A DNA stretch of 64,000 nt from Desulfomonile tiedjei DSM 6799 (GCF_000266945.1 NC_018025.1:2418001-2482000); one strand, 5' to 3'. Positions 5,752 to 47,227 are shown, counted from the stretch's first letter. Program-made: numbers and translations. The notes: generated from the sequence alone by a model not told the origin.

Positions 5752-5767
5752 TGCAAAATTAATACCA
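5752..5767 (-). promoter_or_regulatory. Candidate sigma-54 promoter of the CheB-CheR/activator operon
   Basis: Read on the minus strand the site is TGGTATTAATTTTGCA. It has GG and GC exactly ten bases apart and a perfect -12 TTGCA, but two mismatches in the -24 TGGCAC. The predicted start, about 12 bases after the GC, would leave a short leader holding the GGGGA ribosome site. Since the operon itself encodes a sigma-54 activator, self-control is possible. The match is only moderate. Confidence 0.4.
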
Positions 5768-20883: not shown

Positions 20884-21378
20884 TCAAGTGATTTCCATAA
20901 ACTTGGTCCCGTCGACTCCACAGTACGGGCACTTTTTCGGCGCCTTGCCCCGGACAGTGTGGCCGCACGTCGGACAAACGTAGAAGTTTGCCGAAGCATT
21001 TTCGGACTCACTCTCCAACGCTTTCTGAAAGAGCTTGTGATGCACCATTTCAATGGACATGGCATATTCGAAACTATGCCTGGCTTCAATTTCATTATCC
21101 GCAACTGAATCTTTGACCATGGCAGGGTACATTTCTTTGAACTCAAAGGCTTCCCCATGCACAGCGGTTTGGAGATTCTCTTCAGTCTCCCTTATCCCTT
21201 GCATGGCACGCAAGTGATTGAACGCGTGAACCTGTTCCGCTCTGGATGCTGCCCTGAACAATCGGGCCGCCCCTGGAAAACCCTCTGAATCTGCCTTCTC
21301 GGCGAATGCCTGGTACCGCATGCTGGCCTGACTCTCGCCAGCAAATGCCTCTTTAAGGTTCTCTTCTGTTTTGCTCAT
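20884..21378 (-). CDS. rbr: Rubrerythrin
   Basis: A 164-residue non-haem iron peroxidase. The N-terminal ferritin-like di-iron domain has the expected Glu residues (AFAGESQASMRYQAFAEKA, RAEQVHAFNH, EAFEFKEMYP, EIEARHSFEYAMSIEMVHH). The C-terminal rubredoxin-like Fe(SCys)4 site has CPTCG and CPYCG (near 135-155). It reduces hydrogen peroxide using rubredoxin or related donors in the cytoplasm of anaerobes. GGGG precedes the ATG. It lies just after the RamA-like gene, with an 86-bp gap, and may be a separate unit. Confidence 0.96.
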   Translation of the reverse strand: MSKTEENLKEAFAGESQASMRYQAFAEKADSEGFPGAARLFRAASRAEQVHAFNHLRAMQGIRETEENLQTAVHGEAFEFKEMYPAMVKDSVADNEIEARHSFEYAMSIEMVHHKLFQKALESESENASANFYVCPTCGHTVRGKAPKKCPYCGVDGTKFMEIT

Positions 21379-21464: not shown

Positions 21465-23090
21465 TTATTCTTTGAAAAATCGCTCAAGGGAGAATCCTTT
21501 GGGGGGACAAGCGCGTTCGCACCTCCGGCAAGCCACTCCATTGCATAACGATTGATCCAGTATCAAGACCGGAGGATCTGAGCCTTCGAGATGCCGAATT
21601 GCCTTCTCCGGGCATGACGCCACGCATTCGAAACACGCGGTACACTCTTCGAACTGGACCTGGACTATCTGTCCCACGTCCGGAACAGTTACCAATCCGA
21701 GACGACCGAGATCGTCGATATCGCGGCGGACTGTGCGGATTACTTCCGGAGATCCTTCGATAGTGAGCAGCTCAGGGAAGCCGTACCTCCTGAGAAACGC
21801 CTGATATTGGGAGAAAGGCATTCCTTCGGTCCAAAAAGAGAGTTCCAGAATGTATATTTTCTCAAAGACTTTGGATGCAGCAAACATGCAGTGAGTCTGG
21901 CGAAGGTTCTTCGCGAGGTCACTCATCATGTCTAACTTTTTCGGGTCGAGTACAAGGTCGCGCGCCATAGCGAGGGACGTGTTTCCCACCTGGTAGATGG
22001 TTTTGACTCTGGGAGGAATCATGCCGAGCCGCTGTGCTTTCAGGGCATCCACGTATGTTCCGGAAGCACCGGACATATACGCTGTCACCACATCTCCCAT
22101 GTCGATGCCTGCCTCATGGCAGAGCGTTACATGCCCGGCTCGTACCGATCCTATGGCTTTCCCTGCTTCTTTGAGATCTTCTTCAGTAAAATTGATGTCC
22201 GATGAAAGATGAAATTCGGCATCGAGAGTATTTATACGGGGCAGACGAACGAGATTGGCTTCCAAACCTTGACTTACGATGGCAACCGTTCCTGTTCCGG
22301 TTATCCCGACAGGCTCGATCTCTCCCGCTTCCCGGACATTTCCGGTCTCCAGATTGATCAGCGGTCCCATGATAGACAACATGTCTTGATCCAGGACAAT
22401 CAACCTGTGGAGATGATCGACTCTGTTCAAGTCGGAAATGGCTCCAGGCATGGCCAGCATGCCACAGGTAATCTGTTGACCTTCCAGAGCAGGTCCTGCG
22501 GCAGTGGAGCCCGTGATTACCTGTCCTTGATGGAACAGTGCCATTTCAGCATTTGTCCCGTAATCTGTCGTAAGAGAGGTCTCGTCCCGCTCCAGCATAC
22601 CGGTTTGGATCATCATGGCCAGAGCGTCCGCGCCAATCTCGTGACGGACAGCAGGAGGAATAAGCACTTCTGCCTCGGCAGGAATCATAAGGCCGCGAAT
22701 CTGAGAAGCTGTGAGAACCGTGGCATCACGCTTGGGCGGGACGACTCCGAGCGCCTCCAGCTTTCTTTTGCCGGCAAACGCCAGATCCCGGATTTCTATC
22801 CTCTGAAATAAAGAAAGCTGAATCGGATTTCCGCAGACAGCGAGACGCACCACGTCATCCAGAGGAACTCTGAGCCTTCCCAGAACCTTGTTGACCGCTT
22901 CCATCATCACATTGCCGGCAATCTCAACGCTCATCTCCAGAGCAAAATGTAGATGATCTATGACATTGGCTCCGGGCAGAGGATGCCGAGTAGTAATAGC
23001 GGTGGATATGATTTCGCGGGAGTTCAGGTCGATGGCATGAGCTCTGAAGCCGCTGGTTCCGAGATCCATTGCAATCGCCAACCGAGTCAT
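21465..23090 (-). CDS. ramA: RamA-like ATP-dependent reductive activase of corrinoid proteins
   Basis: A 541-residue protein that matches the methanogen RamA layout from end to end: an ASKHA-type N-terminal region (IAMDLGTSGFRAHAIDL; AVCGNPIQLSLFQ; TDYGTNAEMALF; AYMSGASGTYVDA) and a C-terminal two-cluster ferredoxin domain (CTACFECVASCP and CNGVACRRCERACP, near 470-530). In methanogens RamA reduces inactive Co(II) corrinoid to Co(I) at the cost of ATP. Here the likely client is the MtaC-type protein about 5 kb away. AAGGA stands before the ATG. The longer bacterial RACE activases usually have an N-terminal 2Fe-2S domain, which is absent here. Confidence 0.92.
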   Translation of the reverse strand: MTRLAIAMDLGTSGFRAHAIDLNSREIISTAITTRHPLPGANVIDHLHFALEMSVEIAGNVMMEAVNKVLGRLRVPLDDVVRLAVCGNPIQLSLFQRIEIRDLAFAGKRKLEALGVVPPKRDATVLTASQIRGLMIPAEAEVLIPPAVRHEIGADALAMMIQTGMLERDETSLTTDYGTNAEMALFHQGQVITGSTAAGPALEGQQITCGMLAMPGAISDLNRVDHLHRLIVLDQDMLSIMGPLINLETGNVREAGEIEPVGITGTGTVAIVSQGLEANLVRLPRINTLDAEFHLSSDINFTEEDLKEAGKAIGSVRAGHVTLCHEAGIDMGDVVTAYMSGASGTYVDALKAQRLGMIPPRVKTIYQVGNTSLAMARDLVLDPKKLDMMSDLAKNLRQTHCMFAASKVFEKIYILELSFWTEGMPFSQYQAFLRRYGFPELLTIEGSPEVIRTVRRDIDDLGRLGLVTVPDVGQIVQVQFEECTACFECVASCPEKAIRHLEGSDPPVLILDQSLCNGVACRRCERACPPKGFSLERFFKE

Positions 23091-23285
23091 TGCGAATCCT
23101 TCCCATACCTTGCCATTTCAAAGCAGTGGCTCGGAAAATCCTTCTTCTATAAGGAAGGTTCTCCAAGCCTTACTTCTTTGATTGCGAATCGGTTTCACGG
23201 GTAGCATTCCGATGGTTTATTCTATATAATCTGAAAAAGTAAGTTGGATTCCAAAAAAATCTTGCTCCGACAATGAGATAACGTA

Positions 23286-23507
23286 ATGAAAGCTTGCACT
23301 CGCTGTGGTGTCTGGCATACAGACGCTGAAAAACGTGCCGGACATTACCTGTCATGCACAGAAGTGAAACAGTATTGGTCTGATCTTAAACGCCTCCACA
23401 TGGAGGCCACGGGCCATCTCGCAATGATCAAAATCAGTAAAGACGGCCGCGTTTTATGCATAAAGTGCGGCCAAGAACTTACTGAGGATCCGTTGAAAAC
23501 TTACTGA
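23286..23507 (+). CDS. Small double-CxxC zinc-ribbon-like protein
   Basis: A 73-residue protein with CTRC near the N-terminus, a middle cysteine, and CIKC near residue 59, suggesting one or two metal sites. It is otherwise charged, with no signal peptide. The ribosome site is weak. It converges on, and overlaps by 7 bases, the 191-residue gene on the minus strand. The function is unknown. Confidence 0.55.
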   Translation: MKACTRCGVWHTDAEKRAGHYLSCTEVKQYWSDLKRLHMEATGHLAMIKISKDGRVLCIKCGQELTEDPLKTY

Positions 23508-24076
23508 CCGTCGAAACCGAACAAGACGGTACCCGTGCCCCATTCATCCTTTTCATCGAAGTACCTGTTCTTCAGAAATACGTCTCCTGCGGTGGAAGGA
23601 AAGCAGAATATGTAGTCTCCGAATTCTTCAAGACCTGGCAAGCATTCTTCGGCACCAAGAGCAGGCAATTCAAAGCAGCACTTCTTTGCGACTATGTCTC
23701 CGGGAAAATCGACTCTGTCCTTGTAGATCACGAAATTTTTATGAAGAAAGAATGCATTCGGTTGTTTTTGCAGGTCCTCGATTCGTGATGGGTCACGGAC
23801 CTCCTCGCCTACGATTTCATCATCTTTTTTCAGAAGCATGTGGGACTGACAGCCCCACTCGAACTCCATTGTCGTGATGGCAAGGAAGACATGCTTGGAA
23901 CGGAGCACGTCCCGGATTCCGCTGTTGTAGCACAAGCCCATGCCCATGAAAGCTTTCTTTTCCGCCTCGGTTTCGATGTCCAGCAGTTGGAAACGATCTG
24001 CGTGTTCCAGCTCAAACGCTGCGAGTATTCCCTTTATGGCTTGGAGACAGTCCAGGATCGGGTCACGAACAGGCAT
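23501..24076 (-). CDS. Unknown protein downstream of the CobW-type GTPase
   Basis: A 191-residue soluble protein with no signal peptide. It has several cysteines (LDCLQ, GLCYN, EWGCQ, KKCCFEL, EECLPG, IFCFPS) but no standard Fe-S spacing. I do not recognise the family. It begins 14 bp after the GTPase gene stops, so the two are almost surely cotranscribed. Placed between that GTPase and the RamA-like activase, it may help handle metal or corrinoid, which is inference from position only. Confidence 0.7.
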   Translation of the reverse strand: MPVRDPILDCLQAIKGILAAFELEHADRFQLLDIETEAEKKAFMGMGLCYNSGIRDVLRSKHVFLAITTMEFEWGCQSHMLLKKDDEIVGEEVRDPSRIEDLQKQPNAFFLHKNFVIYKDRVDFPGDIVAKKCCFELPALGAEECLPGLEEFGDYIFCFPSTAGDVFLKNRYFDEKDEWGTGTVLFGFDGQ

Positions 24077-24090
24077 TTATCCCCCTGACT

Positions 24091-25059
24091 TCATTCTTCC
24101 CGACACTCGTCCAGTGCAGCGTCCATTGCCTGGGGCTTCATTTCCTGGCCGATTATGGACAGCGCACTGTATTCCGCTATAGGTGCGGCTTCAACGTGCA
24201 CCTCGCCGGAAGCAAGCTCTACTTTTATCCAGTCCTCAGGAGTTTGGAAAATTCCTTTGGCACGAACCACTTTTCCATAGCCGCCCGATCTCAAAGCCTC
24301 AAAGAAAGATACCAGACAAGGTCGAGAAAATGAGTCGGAGTATTTTCGTCCAAAGGATTCAAATTGATCTGCCAGCCCGTGATCGTGACCGTGAGCACCT
24401 TCCGAGACAAACGTTCCCTCAAATTCTTGCAGAAACTCTGTTACCTCATCCCTGTCGCCGGCACTTCCCAGAAGTTTTTTCAAGACAGAATCCTGAAGCC
24501 GAGCGAAGCGAGTGGGGTACACAATCGCATTAGGATTGATCTCTTTTATAGAACTTACCAGAAGGTCAAGCATCGCCGGCTTTACTCGATCCATCTTGTT
24601 GAGAAGCACTGCTCTACTGCGTCGGATCTGGTTTTCCATGAAATGCCGATGAGACTTGATGAAAGACAAGAACTCCGACGCGTCCAACAGGTGAATAAGA
24701 TTAAGATCTGAATACAAAGGCCGCATGTCTTCAGATTCGAGTATCTGCATGATCTGGGATATGGTGGCTACGCCGGTGGGTTCGACAATAATCCTGTCCG
24801 GAGCGAAACGGTGGCACAAATCCAGGAGTTGACGTCGAAAATCGCTGGCTATAGTGCAGCAGATGCACCCGGAAGGCAATTCTATGACTTCGGCCACCTG
24901 AGCACCATGACCGGACAACACAAGACCGTCAATTCCGACTTCTCCGAATTCATTGACGATAATGACCACTTTTTCGCTCTGGGGCGGATTCTCCATCATA
25001 TATCGTATGAAGGTAGTTTTCCCGGCTCCCAGAAAACCGTACACAACGTTCACGATCAT
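24091..25059 (-). CDS. CobW/COG0523 G3E GTPase (metallochaperone-type)
   Basis: A 322-residue G3E GTPase. Walker A GFLGAGKTT is near 8-16, the metal-binding C-x-C-C motif (PSGCICC) near 63-69, the EPTG switch near 96, the NKMD guanine-specificity motif near 155, and a His-rich patch (GAHGHDHG) near 220. The C-terminal CobW_C domain covers about 235-310. Family members deliver or manage zinc, cobalt or nickel. Next to a corrinoid methyltransferase cluster, cobalt or corrinoid delivery is attractive. AGAGG precedes the ATG, and the partner gene follows by 14 bp. Confidence 0.88.
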   Translation of the reverse strand: MIVNVVYGFLGAGKTTFIRYMMENPPQSEKVVIIVNEFGEVGIDGLVLSGHGAQVAEVIELPSGCICCTIASDFRRQLLDLCHRFAPDRIIVEPTGVATISQIMQILESEDMRPLYSDLNLIHLLDASEFLSFIKSHRHFMENQIRRSRAVLLNKMDRVKPAMLDLLVSSIKEINPNAIVYPTRFARLQDSVLKKLLGSAGDRDEVTEFLQEFEGTFVSEGAHGHDHGLADQFESFGRKYSDSFSRPCLVSFFEALRSGGYGKVVRAKGIFQTPEDWIKVELASGEVHVEAAPIAEYSALSIIGQEMKPQAMDAALDECREE

Positions 25060-25545
25060 GGGAACACCTCTACCGCTATCGCACTGTGAGTCCGCAATAC
25101 CTGTTCAGACGATCTACTCTGATATGCATCGCTCACACTTTGCATGGTGAGTATCTTCTTGTCTCATGTCAAGTGGATGCCGTACGAAAAAGCCTTTAGA
25201 AGAGTTTGACACTTGAAGCCATCCTTGTGTAAACGCCTTCCTCACTCCTTCCAAGAAACTGACATGTTGCCGCAAGCCCGGCATTGCAAGTGAGAAGTTC
25301 TCGGAAAGGGGCTATCTTCTTGCCACTTGAAAATGCTGCCGCCCTTTGGGTTCGCTCGCCCTGCAATGTGATCGCCATAGACTGTGCCCATCGTCCAAGC
25401 AGGTTGAACGGGTATCATCGACTTACGTTATTTCCGTCGTGCCATCAGGCGGAGCATGGTCATTCGATGTCCCGGAAGCGCTCAAAGCAATGAAAGTCTT
25501 GAACGACCTATAACCTCTATGCTCCAAACAAAGACATCGAGAGAT
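25060..25545. other. Gene-free stretch between the GTPase and the channel gene
   Basis: About 490 bases. Short open frames occur on both strands (for example a 60-codon minus frame near 25196-25378), but none has a ribosome site or recognisable protein. No clear promoter, hairpin or tRNA is seen. Confidence 0.5.
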
Positions 25546-26076
25546 TTAGAACGGAAACGCTCCTGCGGTCATCATGTAGAAGGCTGGTACCCAGAGGCCA
25601 AACACTACCCACACGATCAATGACCAGGCAAGGACAGGAGTAGGGAATTTCCCGTAAGCGTTAAGCCAAACCATGAACGTCAAGGCAGCGTAACCCGCAC
25701 ACGCGAACGCCAGATAGTTGCTCTTCACTATCAACAGCTTGCCGTCTTCCAGAACCGGTCCCCCGGTGAAGAAGAGGATCATGTAAATGACGGACACAAG
25801 AGCAGTGTAAAGACTCACGTTACCGACGGATCTCAGATCGTCCAGGCCGGTGAGCAAGGCGTATGCTACGGAGCAATAGAAGATCCCGTGTGCGAAGAGG
25901 AGTCCTGCCACAAAAGGGTCTTTGAACACGGTGGCTTGAATTATTGCCCCCAGAATTGTAACAGACCCTACAAAGCCGGTGATCGCTCCAGTACCTTTGG
26001 GCTCTCCTTTTCCAAGGAAAAATATCGCCACCGCCAACCACATTGCACCAATGGCTATGAGCACTGGCATTGCCAT
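25546..26076 (-). CDS. AmiS/UreI-like small-solute channel
   Basis: A 176-residue membrane protein with six or seven hydrophobic helices, the size and helix pattern of the AmiS/UreI family (proton-gated urea channel of Helicobacter, amide channel of Rhodococcus and mycobacteria). Useful segments are ITGFVGSVTILGAI, GLLFAHGIFYCSVAYALLTGLDDL and the C-terminal VPAFYMMTAGAFPF. The ATG at 26076 has GGGGG six bases upstream, so the longer frame from 26121 is not used. No urease or amidase gene is near. The next gene upstream is mtaB, and a terminator lies between. It may pass methanol or another small neutral substrate, which is inference. Confidence 0.72.
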   Translation of the reverse strand: MAMPVLIAIGAMWLAVAIFFLGKGEPKGTGAITGFVGSVTILGAIIQATVFKDPFVAGLLFAHGIFYCSVAYALLTGLDDLRSVGNVSLYTALVSVIYMILFFTGGPVLEDGKLLIVKSNYLAFACAGYAALTFMVWLNAYGKFPTPVLAWSLIVWVVFGLWVPAFYMMTAGAFPF

Positions 26077-26285
26077 TCGCTTCCCCCTTTCGTGAGTGGA
26101 AGGATTGTTTCCAGGTCCCATGAATGCCGTCCATCATCGATGGGATCGTCTTCCATCTATGTGGCCCGATGTCTTACGTATAGCAGATGTGTGTCCACTC
26201 CTTTTCTGCAGAGGTCAACGCGTGTGCGTCCGGATTCTCAGCTAGATCGCGGTTTTACAGCAAACAACCTCACATAGCGGTTTGG

Positions 26286-26323
26286 AAAAATATGGCCAAG
26301 ACCGCCATTGGGCGGCCATGGCC
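26286..26323 (-). terminator. Rho-independent terminator after mtaB
   Basis: On the minus strand, GGCCATGGCCGCC pairs imperfectly with GGCGGTCTTGGCC around CAAT and is followed by ATATTTTT. It lies about 85 bases past the mtaB stop and separates the methyltransferase genes from the channel gene. Confidence 0.7.
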
Positions 26324-26408
26324 GGGGCAAGTCTCACTATTGGACGATTAATGCACGCTTTCGATACGGGTTAAGACCGCAAATGATCGGTCTTTCCCAT
26401 CTCAGGCG

Positions 26409-27776
26409 TTACAGACCGTACGCTGCAGGGACAAATCCCTTAACTTTTGAATACTTCTTGAGGCACATGTCAATGAAGTCTCCTTCCTTATCGGGAAGAG
26501 CTTGCATGTCCTTCATGTACCCCTGGAGCATCTCTTTTTCATACGCAGTCAGCTTGAGCATCGGATCGCCCAACATGAGTTCCCCGCATTTCATTGCTGC
26601 TGCTTTGGCTCGGCTATACAGGCTGGCATTGTTGTCCACCAGCGCTTTACCTATTTGCCATGCATTGTCAGGGCTCAGCATAAAGGCGTGAGGGCCGCGA
26701 TACTTGTCAGAGTTCACGAGGCACGCCTGGAACTCTTTCTGGTATCCCAGATCGATGGCCGCGTTCATTGCCGCAACGTCATAACCGAGTATCTCCGCGA
26801 AAACTGCGGTGGTAGTGCCGCCGAACATGTCGTGGTATTCCACGGCTTCATTGGACCATACGTCGGTTACCGCCGCAATGACATTGCCACAGAGGTCTGC
26901 ATGCGCACAGGCACTGGTCTTTCCTTCGCAAGAGATGGGCACTCCTGTTACGGACTTGATGATGGGATCTTCGTACGCACAGTCCTTGGTCGGCCCCGTC
27001 GCTCCGCATTCATACGCCACGAGGGTCCGGCTGGCGCAAATTGCCCGTGACAGAGCAGCCAGAGTGTGCGGCACATCTTTGGACAGATAACCACCTGCCA
27101 TAAACATGGCTGTGTTTGCCTCGGAGCAGTTCGTGTCACCACCGGGAATGCAGTTGTGCTTCTTGGCGATGGCTACGATCTGTGTCCACATCCATTCCAT
27201 GTCTCTTCCGCCCAACACCGCCTGGCCGAACAGGAGGCCTGCAATATCGTTTCGGATGATGGCATGGTCGAAGACTTCTTTGCCGCCCATGGATTCAATG
27301 GATACGATGTCAGCGTACTTGGCGCATTCCTCGAAGGTCTCGAGAACCTCTCTCGTATAATCGGAATCTCGCATGTTCACCATGTCAGGCTTGCGTAAGT
27401 CTGCAGGAGTGGCCCTATATGCAGCTTTCAGCCCGTACTTCTGCAGGTATTCATCCATCTGCCTTGCGGTTTGGGCAGCGATTTCACCTCCCCACTTGGG
27501 GTTGTGAGTCATCTGGAAAATATGCTCGTTTTCTATCTGGAGTTGTGGATGTCCCACGATAACACAGCGCTCCAGTGCGTCGCCATTGGCTCTTTCGTAC
27601 TCGCGCAGCAATGTCTTCATTGTCTTTTCGCTGCCGGGCCGTGGATGAGGAACGACCTCAGGAACAACATGACCGCCGCCCAATACGATGCCTCGTTTGG
27701 TCGTGACCGGCTTTTTCGCTGTCCCGAATATCATTTCGTCTGCGCTCTTATAGGCCATTTCACTGCTCAAATTCAT
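26409..27776 (-). CDS. mtaB: Methanol:corrinoid protein methyltransferase MtaB
   Basis: A 455-residue protein that follows Methanosarcina MtaB over its full length. The zinc ligands are all present: Glu in SIESMGGKEVFD (near 162), Cys in GGDTNCSEANTAMF (near 217) and Cys in TKDCAYEDP (near 264). The start motif MAYKSADEMIFG and the end KGFVPAAYGL also fit. MtaB splits the C-O bond of methanol and moves the methyl group to Co(I) of MtaC. A strong AAGGAGGAG site precedes the ATG. It follows mtaC by 51 bp and ends at a terminator. Related TIM-barrel methyltransferases act on other methyl donors, but the zinc-site match supports methanol. Confidence 0.93.
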   Translation of the reverse strand: MNLSSEMAYKSADEMIFGTAKKPVTTKRGIVLGGGHVVPEVVPHPRPGSEKTMKTLLREYERANGDALERCVIVGHPQLQIENEHIFQMTHNPKWGGEIAAQTARQMDEYLQKYGLKAAYRATPADLRKPDMVNMRDSDYTREVLETFEECAKYADIVSIESMGGKEVFDHAIIRNDIAGLLFGQAVLGGRDMEWMWTQIVAIAKKHNCIPGGDTNCSEANTAMFMAGGYLSKDVPHTLAALSRAICASRTLVAYECGATGPTKDCAYEDPIIKSVTGVPISCEGKTSACAHADLCGNVIAAVTDVWSNEAVEYHDMFGGTTTAVFAEILGYDVAAMNAAIDLGYQKEFQACLVNSDKYRGPHAFMLSPDNAWQIGKALVDNNASLYSRAKAAAMKCGELMLGDPMLKLTAYEKEMLQGYMKDMQALPDKEGDFIDMCLKKYSKVKGFVPAAYGL

Positions 27777-27827
27777 GACTCTCCTCCTTGGATCCAGGAT
27801 CAGGGTTGGCTGTAATGAGGCGACTGA

Positions 27828-28577
27828 TTAGCCGTTCCACTTACCTCTCATCGCTTGCCAGTTGTCGCCGGAGAGAGCATCTTCGGCCATTCCGGGAGCC
27901 TGATTGGCCTCCTTGCCCCAGACACCCAGCTCGAAGCTCGTGACGTATTCCTCGCTGACTGCCCCTCCGCCGCACACGAAAGGAATAGCCAGTCCCAGTC
28001 TTTTCAACTGAGCAGCAATCTTCGGAAACGCAGTCATGGTGGTAGTCATGAGTGCAGTGCCGGTGACCATGACCGGATTGTGCGTTCTGCAGGCTTCAAC
28101 TACCTTGTCCACCGGGACATCCGCACCAAGATTGATAACATCAAAACCATTCGCATTCAGGAGCGCATTCACAATGACCTGTCCGATATCGTGAATATCT
28201 CCTTCTGCGGTATGGGTCACAACCTTGGCTTTCTTATCCATGGATTTACCCATTTTCTCTTCACAAAGAGCAATGCCTGCGTTCATGGCATCTGAAGCCA
28301 ATATGACCTGGGGCAGGAAGTAAACCCCTTCGTCCCACAGTCGGCTCACTTCATTCATACCAGGGATGAGTCCTTCGTTGATGACTTCCATGGGCGACTT
28401 TTTCTGCAGCACTTCTTTAGTCAATACTGCCGCCTGGTCTTCGTCCCCTTTCACAACGGCATCAGCCACCTTCTGGAGAAGCTCGTCCTTGGCCACTTTG
28501 CGTGCCGATTGACGTGCTACTTCGATGTTGAGGTCGTACCGTGTGAAAATGTTTGCATAGTCCGTCAAGTACTTCAT
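27828..28577 (-). CDS. mtaC: Methanol corrinoid protein MtaC
   Basis: A 249-residue cobalamin-binding protein. A helical cap covers about 25-115 and a Rossmann B12 domain about 118-240. The base-off motif is EGDIHDIG (His near 130), with GTALMTTTM and FVCGGGAV completing the corrinoid pocket just as in Methanosarcina MtaC. It carries the methyl group between MtaB and the MtaA-type enzyme. GAGGAGG precedes the ATG. Gene order on the strand is mtaA, mtaC, mtaB with gaps of 62 and 51 bp, so one transcript is likely. Oxidised Co(II) would be rescued by the RamA-like activase. Confidence 0.94.
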   Translation of the reverse strand: MKYLTDYANIFTRYDLNIEVARQSARKVAKDELLQKVADAVVKGDEDQAAVLTKEVLQKKSPMEVINEGLIPGMNEVSRLWDEGVYFLPQVILASDAMNAGIALCEEKMGKSMDKKAKVVTHTAEGDIHDIGQVIVNALLNANGFDVINLGADVPVDKVVEACRTHNPVMVTGTALMTTTMTAFPKIAAQLKRLGLAIPFVCGGGAVSEEYVTSFELGVWGKEANQAPGMAEDALSGDNWQAMRGKWNG

Positions 28578-28639
28578 CTTCGCCTCCTCGGGTTTGAAGG
28601 GTTGACACGGAAAGCCTTATAAGGCCTCATTCAACACGA

Positions 28640-29650
28640 TCAAGCGTACGTGTACTCCTCAGCTACTTGAACCATAGCCAAGAGATTAGCGGTCGGCGTG
28701 CCTGGAGCGATAGCGCATCCGGGAGCGAGAACATCCAACCCCATATCAACTTGTTCCCGCGAAGCATCTTTGACGACATCAGGACTCTTCATGAACAAAG
28801 TAGTTGCCGCATCTACTCCGCCAATGAGAATTCCTGAAGGACCTACGACTTTGCGAGCCAGTTGCGTGTCGCTCTTCGGCTCCAGACTGATCGCAGCGCA
28901 CCCGGTGTCGTGCATAAAAGGAATGATCTTGTCTACATTCCCGCAAATGTGCAGGATGACCGGCACGCTCAGGGCATCAACTTGCTTTTTCTGGTATTCC
29001 AACTCAAGGTCTCGATACGTATGCGGAGCGATAAGGTCCGGAGAAGCCTGCATGTCTTCTACTGCAATAAGATCCGCACCTGCCTCAATAAGCGCCTTGC
29101 CCAGTAGAGTCCCGGCTTTCTCTGCCACGTCCAGAAATGGGTGTAGTTTGTCCGGAGTCTTGAAACTCGCCTTCAGTATCGGTACCGCGTCAAGCATGGC
29201 CCCAGCGATGGTAAAAGGTCCTATTATCCCTCCGATGATTGCCGCCTTGTCGCCAACCTCCCGTTTCATTATCCGTATCGCTTCGATGAGCTGAGGAATC
29301 CTGCCTCGTTGCAAGAAATCATCAGGCAGAAAAGGCGCGTCATCGACTTTGTACAGCGTAGGATGATCTATTCCGGGAATGTTTTCTCTGCCACCAAGTT
29401 TGACTTTGCATCCGAGAGCTTCTGCCTCGAAAGTCTGACAAAACGGAGCTCTTACTGCATCGAACCCAAGCACCGTGTATGCAGCAATCGCCAGTTTCGC
29501 CATGTCCTCGGCCCGTTCGTGACCCTCGGGCCAGTAAGCGCCGACCTTATCCATCTGTTCATACGTCGGAGTGCCGTTGACACAAAAACAGGGCATTCGG
29601 TCGGGTTTCTCGTGATTGAATACCTTCATCACTCGTTCTTTACCTGTCAT
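28640..29650 (-). CDS. mtaA: MtaA/MtbA-type methylcobamide methyltransferase (UroD family)
   Basis: A 336-residue member of the uroporphyrinogen-decarboxylase-fold methyltransferases. The zinc-binding set of MtaA/MtbA is present: H-x-C in VILHICGN (near 231-233) and a Cys in LAPGCAIAPGTP (near 312). In methanogens this enzyme moves the methyl group from MtaC to coenzyme M. Most bacteria lack coenzyme M, so the real acceptor here (tetrahydrofolate, another thiol, or a corrinoid protein) is open. AAGGAG stands before the ATG. It lies between the AcsC-like gene and mtaC. Confidence 0.9.
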   Translation of the reverse strand: MTGKERVMKVFNHEKPDRMPCFCVNGTPTYEQMDKVGAYWPEGHERAEDMAKLAIAAYTVLGFDAVRAPFCQTFEAEALGCKVKLGGRENIPGIDHPTLYKVDDAPFLPDDFLQRGRIPQLIEAIRIMKREVGDKAAIIGGIIGPFTIAGAMLDAVPILKASFKTPDKLHPFLDVAEKAGTLLGKALIEAGADLIAVEDMQASPDLIAPHTYRDLELEYQKKQVDALSVPVILHICGNVDKIIPFMHDTGCAAISLEPKSDTQLARKVVGPSGILIGGVDAATTLFMKSPDVVKDASREQVDMGLDVLAPGCAIAPGTPTANLLAMVQVAEEYTYA

Positions 29651-29724
29651 GGTAGCTCCTTGTGTTGGTTCCTTCGCCCTCCATGGCCTGTTTGAACCAT
29701 CACCTCCTCTCTGAGTCTTCGATC

Positions 29725-30456
29725 TTATTGACCTATCAATCCCTCCTTGAGCAAAAACAGAGGCAACTCCAGGCCACTGACCGGGCCAACCATAACTTGC
29801 CAGCCGGTCACCTGCTTGATTTGACCTGCGAGATGCCTTGCCAGACCGGGTATCACGAGGCTTCTATGGTTCGCCATTGAGCCTACCGCCGTCTCCGTTA
29901 TCACCTTGAGGATCTCAAAGGGGGTGAATCTCTTTTCTTCCACTGCATTGTCCACGCTATATCCTTTGGTGTCGCTCACGAGGATGAACACGCTCATTCC
30001 GCAACTATCCAGGACATTCTCCAGGAGGTGCACCGTCTCACGGAAATTGCACGTTACGAGTACGGGAGAAGACGCGACGGGCAAACGGACGCTGATGAGG
30101 CCCGGAGATAAGCTCTCCATCATCACATTGAAAGGTATGGCCGGAGGAACGAAGTTCATGAGATTTCTCAAGACCGATGCGGTCTCGTCATTCAGCTCCG
30201 GACATCGCCAACTCGCCGGATTGCCTTTTATCAGGGCTTCCGCAAATGCCCGGCAGGATGAGTATCCGCACTCGGTACAATCCACATCCGGCAGATACTC
30301 GAGCAGACTCTCCGTTGTCAGCGGATAAATATCGGCAAATTCTTGTTCGATCACCCAGAACACTCCCGAATTACTCTGTGCCAATAGAGGACACCCATCC
30401 CCAGAGGGCGCGAGATCGATGGGCGTACGGACAGACCCGCAGTTGTTCCGAATCAA
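29725..30456 (-). CDS. Shortened corrinoid/iron-sulfur protein (AcsC/CdhE-like)
   Basis: A 243-residue protein. Its N-terminal part has the CFeSP 4Fe-4S motif (DCTECGYSSCRAFAEAL, then WRCPEL; Cys near 57, 60, 65 and 82). The C-terminal part (VIPGLARHLAGQIKQVTGWQVMVGPVSGLELPLFL) matches the corrinoid-contacting end of AcsC/CdhE. The central TIM barrel of the roughly 440-residue parent is mostly missing. No acetyl-CoA synthase genes are near. It is first in the mtaACB run, 74 bp before mtaA, so it may pass electrons to, or take methyl groups from, the corrinoid system. The start is uncertain: TTG at 30456 follows an in-frame stop. Confidence 0.75.
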   Translation of the reverse strand: MIRNNCGSVRTPIDLAPSGDGCPLLAQSNSGVFWVIEQEFADIYPLTTESLLEYLPDVDCTECGYSSCRAFAEALIKGNPASWRCPELNDETASVLRNLMNFVPPAIPFNVMMESLSPGLISVRLPVASSPVLVTCNFRETVHLLENVLDSCGMSVFILVSDTKGYSVDNAVEEKRFTPFEILKVITETAVGSMANHRSLVIPGLARHLAGQIKQVTGWQVMVGPVSGLELPLFLLKEGLIGQ

Positions 30457-30670: not shown

Positions 30671-30686
30671 AGCAAATACTGTACCA
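30671..30686 (-). promoter_or_regulatory. Sigma-54 promoter for the methanol methyltransferase operon
   Basis: Read on the minus strand the site is TGGTACAGTATTTGCT: -24 TGGTAC (one mismatch to TGGCAC) and -12 TTGCT, with exact ten-base GG-GC spacing. It points at the AcsC-like/mtaA/mtaC/mtaB genes and leaves a leader of about 200 bases. The sigma-54 activator gene lies just upstream. Possible activator dyads upstream are AGTGTCACACT near 30696 and TGTTGGTT/AACCAACA (30766-30773, 30802-30809). Confidence 0.6.
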
Positions 30687-30892: not shown

Positions 30893-30943
30893 ATCGGACT
30901 TTTGTGTCTGACACGAATGTCATGTCAGACACAAAAGTCCGAT
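30893..30943 (-). terminator. Perfect 21-bp-arm hairpin after the NtrC-like gene
   Basis: Arms at 30893-30913 and 30923-30943 are perfect complements (ends ATCGGACTTTTG...CAAAAGTCCGAT) around a nine-base loop. In the minus direction the stem is followed by TTGTTTTG, so it can end transcription of the regulator pair. The inner GTGTCTGACA/TGTCAGACAC resembles REP-type palindromes, so it may be a captured repeat. Confidence 0.6.
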
Positions 30944-30962: not shown

Positions 30963-32360
30963 TCATTTGAACTCTGCCTTATCCAGCCCAAATTGCTTCA
31001 TTTTGCGCAAAACGGTTCGAACGTCCACCTGAGCATCGGCCGCCGTAAGGCTCACTGTTCCCTTATTCTTCTTCAGCAGGTGTCTAAAATATCGTTCTTC
31101 CATGCGAGCCAGGGTCTCTTCTCTGAGTGCCTTTAAGGGGAGGGTAGGATCGAAAGGGAGACACAGCTCGTTGTCATTACTATGGTCGACTTGAGTGCCT
31201 GCAAGGGAGAACGGGATTTCGTCGATCAAATCGTCTTGCGCCATAATCATAGCGCGTTCAAGTACATTTTCCAGTTCGCGCACATTGCCGGGCCACGGAT
31301 GCTTCATCAAGCTGAACATTCCCCGGTGCGACAGGGTCAATTGGGATTTATTGTTATTAATGGCAAGTTTCTCGAGGAAGTGAGCCGCGAGAAGAGGTAT
31401 GTCATCCAAACGCTCTCTCAATGGCGGCAGGTGAATGGGAACCACATTGAGCCTGTAATACAGATCGAGGCGAAATCGATTTGCAGTCAATTCCTGAGAA
31501 AGGTCTTTATTGGTGGCGGCGATAATTCTGAAATTAAGTGATATCAGTCTATTACCGCCGAGTCGTTCAATCTTTTTGTCCTGAATCGTCCGTAGCAATT
31601 TGCTTTGCAGAGAATAGGGCATGTCACCTATTTCATCCAGGAACAAAGTGCCATGGTTGGCCTGTTCGAGTTTGCCCTGTTTTCGGCGTTCCGCACCTGT
31701 AAACGCTCCGCGCTCGTAGCCGAACAGCTCGCTTTCGAGAAGGGTCTCCGGGACTGACGCACAGTTTATGGCGACAAAGGGACCGCTTTTCCGAAGGCTA
31801 TGAAAGTGTATAGCCCTGGCTACCAGATCCTTGCCGGTGCCTGTTTCTCCTGTGATGAGCACTGAGGAGTCCATGTTGGACAACGATTCGATCAGATTGA
31901 AAATGCTCTGCATCCTCGGATGCTTGCCGACGAGATTTTCGAACCGGTATCTTTGCTGGAGATTCGCCCTTAAGGCTACTACTTCACGTTTGAGCTGCCT
32001 TTCTTCAAAAATCCTGCTGAGGACCAGAAGCAGTTTCTCGGGGACAACCGGTTTTTCGAGAAAATCGCTGGCCCCGGATTTCAGTGCGTCTACGGCAGTG
32101 CCGATCGAGCCGTATGCAGTGATAACAACGGAGAGCGTCTCCGGGTTGATCTCCACGGCTCGTTTGAGAAAATCAAGGCCATCCATCCCGGGGAGGATCA
32201 TGTCGATAATGAGAAGATCGTAATCGATCTCGCCAAGTAATGTCAGTGCTTCCTCGGCACTCGCTACATAATCCGTGGTGTATCCCTCGGACCCGAGTAT
32301 CCGAGCAAGGGTCTTGGCGGAATTGATATCATCGTCAACGATGAGCAATCGGTACTGCAT
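30963..32360 (-). CDS. NtrC-family sigma-54 response regulator
   Basis: A 465-residue three-domain activator. Receiver domain 1-120 with phospho-Asp in [13 protein letters not shown] (near 53) and switch Lys in [13 protein letters not shown]+ domain about 140-370 with Walker [15 protein letters not shown] loop and a standard Walker [14 protein letters not shown]-terminal Fis-type helix-turn-helix ([21 protein letters not shown]). GGTGAG precedes the ATG. It follows its kinase gene by 6 bp. Its position and the -24/-12 site beyond its end make the methanol methyltransferase genes the likely target. Confidence 0.95.
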
Positions 32361-32366
32361 AGAATC

Positions 32367-34283
32367 TCACCATATGGGTAAACAGATCATAGCCTTGGTC
32401 CCTCCGTTGGGACGACTCTCAAGGGTTACGGCTCCTCCGTGAACTCGGACGATATGATCCACCAGGGCCAGGCCCAGGCCCAACCCTCCTTCTTTTCTGG
32501 AATAAAAAGGTTTCATGACCTTTCTTATTTCTTCTTCTGCCAGGCCGGGCCCATCATCTTCAATCACAATCTGAGCAAATTCCAAACGCGGCTCCGGTCC
32601 GTGTCTGATCTTCAGCTTTCGGGTGAAAACCCACAGGTGGCCGTCACTGTTTATAGCTTCCATGGCATTCTTGATAATATTGTGGAAAGCCTGGTTCAGA
32701 AGAAACATATCTGCTCGTGTCATAGGCAAGTCAGGATCGAATGATGTCACGAGTTCCACTCTCGCGAGTTCCATCCATCCTTTAAATGAGTGAAGCGTAT
32801 TATTCAAGATGTCATTAATCGATTCATGACAAAGGCTTACGTCCTGTGTTCGAGTGTATTGGATAAATTCATTGATCATCCTGTTTATAAGCTCGACACG
32901 TTCTGTAATATTCTGAATGAGATCTTTCTTCTCACCTTCCTCAACATTATCCTGCCGCAACAAATGCAGAGCGTACACGAGGTTGTTCAGAGGATTTCTG
33001 ATCTGATGAGCTATTCCGGAAGCAAGCTCTGCAAGAAGAGCCATATTCCGGGAATGTTCTATTTCGTCAAGCAGGCGATCTTTGCTGAAAGATCTCTTAA
33101 AAGAATGAGAAGAAAACGATCTGCCGACGTGATCGATAATGAATCGCTGTGTTCTCTCCGCATCCCTTTTTTCCTTGGAAATAAGCTTAATCTGCCGTTC
33201 GAGATCTCCCATGAGAGAGATATGCTCAAGGAAGAGGCCTATCATGTTGAGGGCCGTCATGAGCAACCTGGTGTCCGCCGGCCGATTCTTAGTCTCTCTG
33301 AGCCCGAGAAAGCCCAGGCCTATAAGATCCCGGTGGTGCCGCAAAGCAAATTCCAGAACAGACTCTATTCCTTGCGATGTGAGATGTGCTTTCAGCACTA
33401 CAGGAAAACGGGGATGATCGGCCACAGATTGGATAGTAAAAGAATCTAGCTTCGACGAGTCGCCATAGAGGCGAATCTTACTTTCGAAGTAGTACCTCAA
33501 CCATGGATCTTCAATCCTTTTGGGATTGGATTTCGGAGACTGCAAGCTTACGCATTGTCCGGTATCCGGAAAATAAATGGCTCCCAAATTAGCTCTAAGA
33601 AGGGGTAAAATGGCTTCGAGCACACGGGTAAGAACGCCCTCAACATTGTAAGACTGTCCGATTACGTTGGCGATACTACTCAGGCAATATAATTCTTTGC
33701 TCAGATTCGCAGTAAGGGCCCGGAGAACCTCTGTCACTTTCTTTTCTTCATTCAGGGCATTCTGAAGTTGTGCAAGACTCCGATCCATCAACAAAATGGT
33801 AACATCTTTGCTGAAATTACTTAATTCCTGCCTGATAGCCAGGTCTTGATCGGATGAGATAAACGTAATCCCGCTGAACTCGATGTTCAGCGTCCCGAAC
33901 CAACGATGCGGCAAATCCAGGTAATAACAAAACTGGGACTTTAGAACGAAAGAGGGTCGTATTGCGTGTCCGGCACGACACGGACGGGGATGATTATCGT
34001 CAGGAATATCCGTTTCGACGTTCCATCTGCCCTGTTGTCGCGTGAGTCTTAGTCGAAGAATTCCCCGATTATTACTATTGTCTCGAACCAGAACAATGAG
34101 ACATTGTGCTCCAAATCGATCTCCCAACTGTGTCAAGACCCGGCAGGAATACTTTTCCAAACGGCTTTCCGCCTCTCCTTCTAGATCTCTGTACATGTCT
34201 TCGGCGATTGACGAAGATGAAGATTCCTGTTCCGTAAAAGGACTCAAACCTAAAAGATCGTATTCTTCCATAGCGGTAGGCAA
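32367..34283 (-). CDS. Soluble sensor histidine kinase, NtrB-like partner
   Basis: A 638-residue kinase without membrane helices. The N-terminal 180 residues are an unrecognised sensory region, about 195-355 look like a GAF domain, and HisKA follows with the phospho-His in ASGIAHQIRNPLNN (near 425). The HATPase domain has NIIKNAMEAI, DDGPGLAEEEI and GGLGLGLALVDHIV. TTG at 34283 or the ATG four codons later may be the start. It is 6 bp before the NtrC-like gene. A cytoplasmic signal, perhaps corrinoid, redox or methyl status, is likely. Confidence 0.9.
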   Translation of the reverse strand: MPTAMEEYDLLGLSPFTEQESSSSSIAEDMYRDLEGEAESRLEKYSCRVLTQLGDRFGAQCLIVLVRDNSNNRGILRLRLTRQQGRWNVETDIPDDNHPRPCRAGHAIRPSFVLKSQFCYYLDLPHRWFGTLNIEFSGITFISSDQDLAIRQELSNFSKDVTILLMDRSLAQLQNALNEEKKVTEVLRALTANLSKELYCLSSIANVIGQSYNVEGVLTRVLEAILPLLRANLGAIYFPDTGQCVSLQSPKSNPKRIEDPWLRYYFESKIRLYGDSSKLDSFTIQSVADHPRFPVVLKAHLTSQGIESVLEFALRHHRDLIGLGFLGLRETKNRPADTRLLMTALNMIGLFLEHISLMGDLERQIKLISKEKRDAERTQRFIIDHVGRSFSSHSFKRSFSKDRLLDEIEHSRNMALLAELASGIAHQIRNPLNNLVYALHLLRQDNVEEGEKKDLIQNITERVELINRMINEFIQYTRTQDVSLCHESINDILNNTLHSFKGWMELARVELVTSFDPDLPMTRADMFLLNQAFHNIIKNAMEAINSDGHLWVFTRKLKIRHGPEPRLEFAQIVIEDDGPGLAEEEIRKVMKPFYSRKEGGLGLGLALVDHIVRVHGGAVTLESRPNGGTKAMICLPIW

Positions 34284-47150: not shown

Positions 47151-47227
<77 letters not shown>

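Follow-up and report, generated by a model that had tools for sequence, protein, structure and literature searches.

Methanol is often seen as a substrate of methanogens that is not shared with sulfate reducers. The window analyzed here, a 64,000-nucleotide stretch of the Desulfomonile tiedjei DSM 6799 genome, raises the question of whether a Gram-negative sulfate reducer encodes a methyltransferase route for methanol and, if so, where the methyl group ends. On the minus strand, from 30456 to 21465, lie the genes for a short CFeSP-like protein, MtaA, MtaC, MtaB, a UreI-type channel, a CobW-type GTPase, a 191-aa protein (U191) and RamA, all of them placed and ordered as in the original prediction, which had read them as a complete, archaeal-style MtaABC system with an activase. 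Since MtaB is present in just 6 of the 395 genomes of the phylum and the set is repeated in dozens of loci, a chance grouping is excluded. We consider it probable that the genes form an operon under sigma-54 control through which the cell uses methanol anaerobically, with the methyl group ending as methyl-tetrahydrofolate in the Wood-Ljungdahl pathway.

Enzymes of the cluster and their control

MtaB (455 aa, 26409..27776, minus strand), the candidate methanol:corrinoid methyltransferase, matched Pfam PF12176 with 704.5 bits (cut-off 25) and shares ~50% of its residues with MtaB of Methanosarcina barkeri (2i2x_A). The zinc ligands Glu164, Cys220 and Cys269 of 2i2x are E, C and C in the window protein and in 49 of 49 aligned MtaBs. 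Its score against the MtaB_Meth equivalog NF040651 was 667.1 bits, below the cut-off of 720, and it was therefore filed as a bacterial MtaB of PF12176; in a profile survey it was single-copy in this genome. Judging from what is known of the family, methanol would be its substrate. MtaC (249 aa, 27828..28577, minus strand) contains B12-binding domains (PF02607 and PF02310), has 2i2x_B as its best solved relative and keeps the cobalt-ligand motif EGDIHDIG (DxHxxG) intact, with a score of 267.8 against an equivalog cut-off of 420. The third enzyme (336 aa, 28640..29650, minus strand), of the URO-D type (235 bits), exceeded the cut-off of the MtaA/CmuA subfamily TIGR01463 (304.6 against 235.4) and retains the zinc ligands H234, C236 and C312. 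Because it reached 322.6 of the 400 bits required by NF040654 (methylcobamide:CoM methyltransferase), it was filed as MtaA-like. All three proteins thus lie under the NCBI equivalog cut-offs for the methanogen proteins. RamA (541 aa, 21465..23090, minus strand) scored 770.9 bits against TIGR04270 (cut-off 500) and carries the cysteine motifs CTACFECVASC and CNGVACRRCERAC and a C-terminal 4Fe-4S dicluster ferredoxin domain. Family scores and ligand residues bear out a complete MtaABC plus activase, with the metal and corrinoid residues all kept, as had been predicted. At the sequence level the enzyme set is complete, with intact ligands, operon order, a conserved promoter, and CODH/ACS, CFeSP and AcsE encoded in the genome.

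Next to the cluster, also on the minus strand, a two-component pair is encoded by the genes of a 638-aa sensor histidine kinase (32367..34283; HisKA and HATPase_c), which comes first, and a 465-aa NtrC-type sigma-54-dependent response regulator (30963..32360; Response_reg and Sigma54_activat). In the related loci L001, L002, L036 and L044, orthologues of the kinase occupy the same place and orthologues of the regulator, 65-76% identical, lie upstream of the cluster. A terminator-like hairpin after the regulator gene (30895..30941, minus strand; 20 pairs, then a T-rich tail) sets the regulator apart from the methanol operon. A motif scan located a -24/-12 promoter, TGGTAC-N5-TTGCT (GG-N10-GC), at 30671..30686 on the same strand; the pattern had 2 matches in the window against 0.19 expected, and an equivalent site was found in 24 of 28 orthologous upstream regions, compared with 1.8 expected in shuffles. 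The operon is thus predicted to be sigma-54-dependent, based on the conserved GG-N10-GC promoter and the NtrC-type activator. The pairing of a conserved sigma-54 promoter with a two-component system is new here; the kinase, the regulator, the promoter and a plus-strand 73-aa gene were absent from the original prediction. No conserved protein gene in the direction of the cluster was found in the intergenic gaps; the gap between U191 and RamA held the opposite-strand 73-aa gene instead. No known RNA family was detected near the cluster, the sole RNA being one tRNA at 47154.

Accessory and small partner proteins

The CobW/COG0523 G3E GTPase (322 aa, 24091..25059, minus strand; PF02492 and PF07683) contains the Walker A motif GAGKTT (GxGKTT) and a CICC (CxCC) metal motif, is below the cut-off of TIGR02475 (102 against 332) and is probably a metal chaperone. 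The 73-aa protein is encoded at 23286..23507 on the plus strand, convergent with U191. It is unannotated and Cys/His-rich, with C4, C7, H11, C24, H38, H44, C58 and C61 invariant. The gene was found at nearly all related loci, with substitutions in excess at the third codon position. Family searches gave nothing above the families' own cut-offs, and fold comparison of its model (pLDDT 82, pTM 0.66) gave no useful match (best Z 2.3). From their neighbourhood, CobW and the 73-aa protein may supply zinc to MtaB and MtaA.

U191 (191 aa, 23501..24076, minus strand) matched no family in Pfam or NCBIfam. Its structure model (pLDDT 85, pTM 0.80) retrieved almost exclusively nitroreductase/BluB proteins among the top 33 matches (best Z 7.1 over 118 residues at 3.7 A; best Foldseek E 0.7), so that a nitroreductase/BluB-like fold is tentatively predicted. 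U191 and MtaB each occur in 6 of 395 genomes and share 4 of them (p about 2e-7). Together with the neighbourhood, the predicted fold suggests that U191 may be a flavin or corrinoid maturation factor. Several of the small partners that recur with the core enzymes are undescribed, and the 73-aa protein and U191 are new here; these two are small, conserved and readily deleted or expressed.

The AmiS/UreI-family membrane channel (25546..26121, minus strand) matched PF02293 with 39 bits (cut-off 25), and an alignment of homologues suggests that the conserved start is probably Met16, at about 26076. It is present in 13 of 47 mtaB loci, and a homologue in another genome adjoins an iron-dependent alcohol dehydrogenase; a literature search for a link between UreI and methanol returned nothing relevant. 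Its context is consistent with an alcohol channel. No convincing solved structure related by sequence was found for U191 or the channel. The short CFeSP-like protein (243 aa, 29725..30456, minus strand) fuses a PF04060 Fe-S domain straight to the C-terminal corrinoid part of PF03599 (positions 277-378), and the TIM barrel is missing. Owing to this partial match and a score of 126 against the 306 bits of the CFeSP large subunit (AcsC/CdhE) equivalog NF003195, it was not filed as CFeSP. Beyond RamA, a rubrerythrin-like gene, named from sequence inspection (164 aa, 20884..21378, minus strand), is a possible associated gene tied to the cluster less firmly than the other parts; homologues lie near RamA in L001, L002, L036, L009, L013 and L015.

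Distribution and relation to known systems

In trees built without named acetogen MtaBs, MtaB and MtaA fall in well-supported bacterial clades, mainly of Thermodesulfobacteriota and separate from methanogens, and the description of the system as archaeal-style is therefore right at most in part. The MtaB-MtaC-CobW-RamA cassette is shared by five bacterial phyla and the Methanomassiliicoccales, its members being kept in 41-45 of 47 mtaB loci (CobW-type gene in 41). RamA lies near MtaB in 43 of the 47, mostly bacterial, and is thus an ordinary component of such clusters. Two related loci, L006 and L007, carry acsE-acsD-acsC after the methanol genes, an arrangement that is new here.

The system shares with MtaABC of Methanosarcina barkeri and M. 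mazei the three-protein logic, the MtaB zinc ligands and the MtaC cobalt-ligand motif, and 2i2x and 4ay7 are its best solved relatives; COG0523 and Ram genes cluster with mta genes there too, according to the available part of one survey (PMC2770081). In contrast, the window proteins are only about 40-50% identical to their counterparts and form a separate clade, and the host has Wood-Ljungdahl metabolism, with ComB not found. Two-component/sigma-54 control, the UreI channel, U191 and the 73-aa gene are all in the window cluster, whereas none was seen at the archaeal loci fetched. The available part of the same survey noted, in 2009, a CobW-type gene beside mtaABC, with the mtaA and mtaB products both being zinc enzymes. 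Its COG0523 subfamily 13 resembles the window cluster in the GTPase adjoining mtaABC and Ram with zinc enzymes nearby, but that part describes neither the 73-aa protein nor U191 (PMC2770081).

Methanol methyltransferases with tetrahydrofolate as the acceptor are known in acetogens and in the Gram-positive Desulfotomaculum (Desulfofundulus) kuznetsovii, where bacterial MtaB and MtaC are likewise used, the methyl group enters tetrahydrofolate and the Wood-Ljungdahl pathway, and the system is methanol-induced (PMC5770442, PMC13391211). The Moorella methanol MtaA, at 29.7 kDa, resembles its counterparts in A. woodii and Eubacterium (PMC13391211), and this size suggests the PF00809 tetrahydrofolate type. 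In contrast, the window MtaA is a 336-aa URO-D-type protein and the host is a Gram-negative sulfate reducer. Type 1 mlp clusters similarly combine a bacterial MtaA-like protein, a corrinoid protein and an activase without a tetrahydrofolate methyltransferase, but contain three MtaA-like proteins instead of an MtaB-MtaA pair and were proposed for methyl-sulfur or methyl-selenium compounds (PMC10418091). With bacterial MtaABC to tetrahydrofolate and the CobW neighbour both published, the label little-described, given to the route in the original prediction, fits only in part; the core enzymes are of a known type, and it is the Gram-negative sulfate-reducer version that is thinly described. Indeed, mtaB was in none of the Gram-negative methanol-oxidising sulfate reducers examined in one study (PMC7808614). 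The cluster and about 15 relatives fetched predict a methyltransferase route to methanol in a subset of these bacteria, and supply candidates for two questions, the acceptor of the bacterial URO-D-type MtaA and zinc delivery to MtaB.

Fate of the methyl group

In the route that we propose, methanol would enter the cell, perhaps via the UreI-type channel, and Co(I) of MtaC would attack zinc-bound methanol on MtaB to give methyl-Co(III)-MtaC and water, while RamA, as is expected from its family, would reduce Co(II) to Co(I) after accidental corrinoid oxidation. The MtaA-like enzyme would hand the methyl group on, finally giving methyl-tetrahydrofolate for oxidation or carbonylation in the Wood-Ljungdahl pathway, whose genes lie elsewhere in the genome. 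The context points to tetrahydrofolate as the final acceptor, reached directly or through CFeSP and AcsE. This model is supported by the family assignments, the intact ligands, the recurrent cassette and the conserved promoter, by ACS, AcsC, AcsE and an AcsD-CODH fusion encoded outside the cluster together with the acsE-acsD-acsC genes of L006 and L007, and by the published precedents in acetogens and D. kuznetsovii (PMC5770442, PMC13391211) and for COG0523 beside mtaA/mtaB (PMC2770081). It is further backed by the co-occurrence of U191 with MtaB and by the UreI homologue beside an alcohol dehydrogenase. Against the model count the sub-equivalog scores of MtaB, MtaC and MtaA, two distant U191 relatives without MtaB nearby, and the literature searched, in which no report of D. 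tiedjei growing on methanol was found.

The known acceptor of MtaA-type enzymes that carry H-C-C zinc ligands is a thiol, coenzyme M, rather than tetrahydrofolate, and the cluster showed no tetrahydrofolate-type methyltransferase of PF00809. Both points argue against the proposed acceptor and justify the doubt over it already raised in the original prediction. The retained thiol-activating ligands would fit a methanogen-like outcome, in which coenzyme M or a different small thiol takes the methyl group from MtaA and the methyl-thiol is processed by a further enzyme, as would a strong ComA-family (phosphosulfolactate synthase) gene (278 bits) beside an MmgE/PrpD-type dehydratase gene. However, a genome search limited to ComA, ComB and ComE did not find ComB and gave no ComE above the cut-off, and a known coenzyme M pathway is therefore not demonstrated; the ComA family has a match in Bacillus subtilis too, so that ComA alone is no proof of coenzyme M. 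Moreover, the window MtaA lies outside the branch holding methanogen MtaA, acsE-acsD-acsC adjoins the cluster in relatives, and the published bacterial systems deliver to tetrahydrofolate (PMC5770442, PMC13391211). We regard methylation of a thiol as unlikely. The idea that ComA sits in a gene cluster for coenzyme M was rejected, its neighbours being the MmgE/PrpD gene, a peptidase-like gene and signalling genes, which form no recognised set.

It is quite unlikely that MtaA or MtaC instead passes the methyl group to the short CFeSP-like protein and from there to AcsE or acetyl-CoA synthase. The gene is first in the operon, its product retains the motifs of the corrinoid domain, most members also have the Fe-S cysteines, and the clusters of L006 and L007 lack it and have the full acsE-acsD-acsC in its place; but the protein is without the TIM barrel of true CFeSP, is absent from most mtaB loci and has partly lost the Fe-S cysteines in L014. 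We likewise think it quite unlikely that the physiological methyl or alkyl donor for MtaB is not methanol but ethanol, a chlorinated methane or some methoxylated compound. The score of 667 against 720 would allow it, the Methanosarcina methanol methyltransferases are also required for conversion of ethanol to ethane, according to the available part of one report (PMC12450230), and many other corrinoid methyl-transfer systems are encoded in the same genome. Nevertheless, about half of the residues match those of M. barkeri MtaB, every zinc ligand included, which argues for methanol, and the other clusters of the genome (URO-D, PF00809 and CmuA-like) can account for the use of methoxyl groups and chloromethane (PMC4197683).

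Methanol-to-tetrahydrofolate transfer thus remains our preferred reading. A more far-reaching reading, which we hold to be doubtful, is that Thermodesulfobacteriota have a methanol module of their own. Its MtaABC would be assisted by a previously undescribed zinc/corrinoid maturation set (CobW, the 73-aa protein and the nitroreductase/BluB-like U191), by an alcohol channel of the UreI family and by a CFeSP-like relay without the barrel, and the MtaA acceptor would not be coenzyme M. Among the other corrinoid systems, the trimethylamine MttB family was not found in the genome, and two CmuA-like corrinoid fusions were present, the number reported for D. tiedjei (PMC4197683).

Core enzymes and affinity of the methanol genes

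The methanol cluster consists of eight genes on the minus strand (30456-21465), encoding in order a short protein resembling the corrinoid/iron-sulfur protein CFeSP (243 aa), an MtaA-like enzyme (336 aa), MtaC (249 aa), MtaB (455 aa), an AmiS/UreI-family channel (191 aa), a CobW-type GTPase (322 aa), an uncharacterised protein, U191 (191 aa), and RamA (541 aa). MtaB is single-copy in the host genome, which comprises a single chromosome of 6,500,104 bp and a further replicon of 26.9 kb. It matched PF12176 with 704 bits in a profile search, and about 50% of its residues are identical in the crystallised M. barkeri enzyme. Its zinc ligands Glu164, Cys220 and Cys269 are present in the window protein and in each of 49 aligned relatives. 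The cobalt-ligand motif is present in MtaC, the MtaA-like enzyme retains the H-C-C zinc ligands, and RamA scored clearly above its family cut-off in the family-model search. These intact ligands and family scores therefore bear out the original prediction of MtaB, MtaC, an MtaA-type enzyme and RamA on one strand. A rubrerythrin-like gene (20884-21378) adjoins RamA, and six related loci likewise have a homologue close to RamA; maybe its product protects the Co(I) system from oxygen.

In the midpoint-rooted MtaB tree, the window protein fell inside a group of 20 sequences with full support, two of them from Chloroflexota and the others from Thermodesulfobacteriota (counting loci titled only 'Deltaproteobacteria'), apart from Bacillota, Actinomycetota and archaea. 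The MtaA tree gave the same bacterial grouping, with the M. mazei enzyme placed elsewhere. Because both trees group the window proteins with bacteria, the system as it now stands is bacterial and the label "archaeal-style" overstated the archaeal link; the midpoint rooting does not bear on where the system ultimately came from. The core is of a known kind, studied already in methanogens, acetogens and one Gram-positive sulfate reducer, so that "little-described" applies not to the core enzymes but to the set in Gram-negative sulfate reducers and its partners. What is new is a methanol system with a consistent extended gene set in these organisms, its predicted sigma-54 control and the uncharacterised genes beside mtaABC.

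Recurrent neighbours and predicted sigma-54 control

A scan of named genomes yielded 48 MtaB loci. Among 47 of them, some ending early at contig ends, MtaB was accompanied by MtaC in 45, RamA in 43, CobW in 41, MtaA in 26, U191 in 14 and UreI in 13; nine loci had a CFeSP-like match, full CFeSP in two cases. Across 395 genomes of the phylum, MtaB and U191 each occurred in 6 and together in 4 (hypergeometric p ~2e-7, relatedness of genomes ignored). The family model found UreI-family genes in 10 of the 395, 3 common to MtaB genomes, and missed a homologue in a fourth MtaB genome.

A 2009 paper already pointed out CobW-type GTPases adjoining mtaA/mtaB and a Ram gene, remarking that both MtaA and MtaB use zinc (PMC2770081); the GTPase may plausibly act as a zinc chaperone. 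In the interval separating U191 from RamA, the opposite strand encodes a 73-aa protein (23286-23507, plus). Its gene was present at 13 of the 14 Thermodesulfobacteriota mtaB loci that are not truncated, with position and orientation differing from locus to locus. Since substitutions between the window and relatives lie mainly at third codon positions (33, against 11 and 7 at the others, in comparison with locus L036), the reading frame is, on this codon pattern, a real protein. No family model matched it at its cut-off. C4, C7, H11, C24, H38, H44, C58 and C61 are invariant in the alignment, and a role in donating or sensing zinc would fit.

The structure of U191 (23501-24076, minus) was predicted with good confidence (pLDDT 85, pTM 0.80), and its structural neighbours are almost all nitroreductase-superfamily flavoproteins, the best being a BluB-like protein (Z 7.1, 118 residues, 3.7 A). 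As Foldseek with this model returned no significant match and a Z below 8 may be background, the nitroreductase/BluB-like fold is a lead, and the foremost idea is that U191 might act on the corrinoid in a flavin-dependent reaction. Genes for the UreI-type channel are found repeatedly in mtaB loci of Thermodesulfobacteriota, Chloroflexota and Bacillota. A homologue of 64% identity is encoded in a different genome next to an iron-containing alcohol dehydrogenase that has two-component genes of its own, which fits a short-alcohol channel. The short CFeSP-like protein (29725-30456, minus) keeps the Fe-S and corrinoid parts, lacks the barrel and may be a relay or redox partner.

Just upstream on the same strand, genes for a histidine kinase (32367-34283) and an NtrC-type regulator (30963-32360) are followed, toward the cluster, by a terminator-like hairpin and a sigma-54 promoter, TGGTAC-N5-TTGCT (30686-30671, minus). 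Of 28 upstream regions of orthologous clusters, 24 had a matching site, with 1.8 expected from shuffles preserving base composition only. A second strong sigma-54-type promoter match in the window, TGGTATTAATTTTGCA (5752-5767, minus), sits just upstream of a minus-strand ORF (2741-5725). Eight Bacillota loci (L017, L018, L026, L027, L031, L034, L046 and L047) encode, upstream of mtaB, a second MtaC-like protein whose cobalt-ligand motif is intact; its gene directly follows a sigma-54 activator and in most loci precedes a sigma-54 promoter, and the protein is perhaps a methyl-corrinoid sensor.

Fate of the methyl group

The chemistry of MtaB/MtaC and Ram proteins is established for methanogens. 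By analogy, MtaB and MtaC would activate methanol and RamA would re-reduce the corrinoid. The host genome has genes for CODH/ACS, AcsC, AcsE and an AcsD-CODH fusion outside the cluster, and the Wood-Ljungdahl route is therefore available. In the ACS cluster, a 1099-aa fusion (L139:11676-14975) joins a CFeSP small-subunit domain (CdhD) to a carbon monoxide dehydrogenase (Prismane) domain. The genome also carries two CmuA-like fusions, fitting the description of Desulfomonile tiedjei DSM 6799 (PMC4197683).

The original query over the acceptor was fair: URO-D-type MtaA is known to methylate coenzyme M, the window enzyme is of this type, and PF00809 genes are absent from the cluster, with eight elsewhere in the genome. 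In the host genome a ComA-family gene is present, ComB is absent and ComE had no match above the cut-off. The ComA-family gene lies directly 3' of an MmgE/PrpD dehydratase gene (L100:8012-10347), with no further coenzyme M genes beside it, and possibly marks a sulfonate or coenzyme M route not recognised so far. In contrast to the window enzyme, the Moorella methanol MtaA, a 29.7-kDa protein resembling those of A. woodii and Eubacterium (PMC13391211), is probably of the PF00809 type. Published bacterial methanol systems use tetrahydrofolate as the next acceptor (PMC5770442, PMC13391211), and at L006 and L007, two related loci, acsE, acsD and acsC come directly after the methanol genes, linking this variant to the tetrahydrofolate/CFeSP branch. 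On this evidence, methyl-tetrahydrofolate is most likely the end product, and the hand-over to it may be direct or may run through CFeSP and AcsE.

Two URO-D methyltransferase paralogues of the host genome (L075, C1:3795128-3796111; L077, C1:1030253-1031236) each contain one in-frame TGA, which falls exactly at the third zinc-ligand cysteine of MtaA (FAPG*DMPY) and suggests selenocysteine as a metal ligand.
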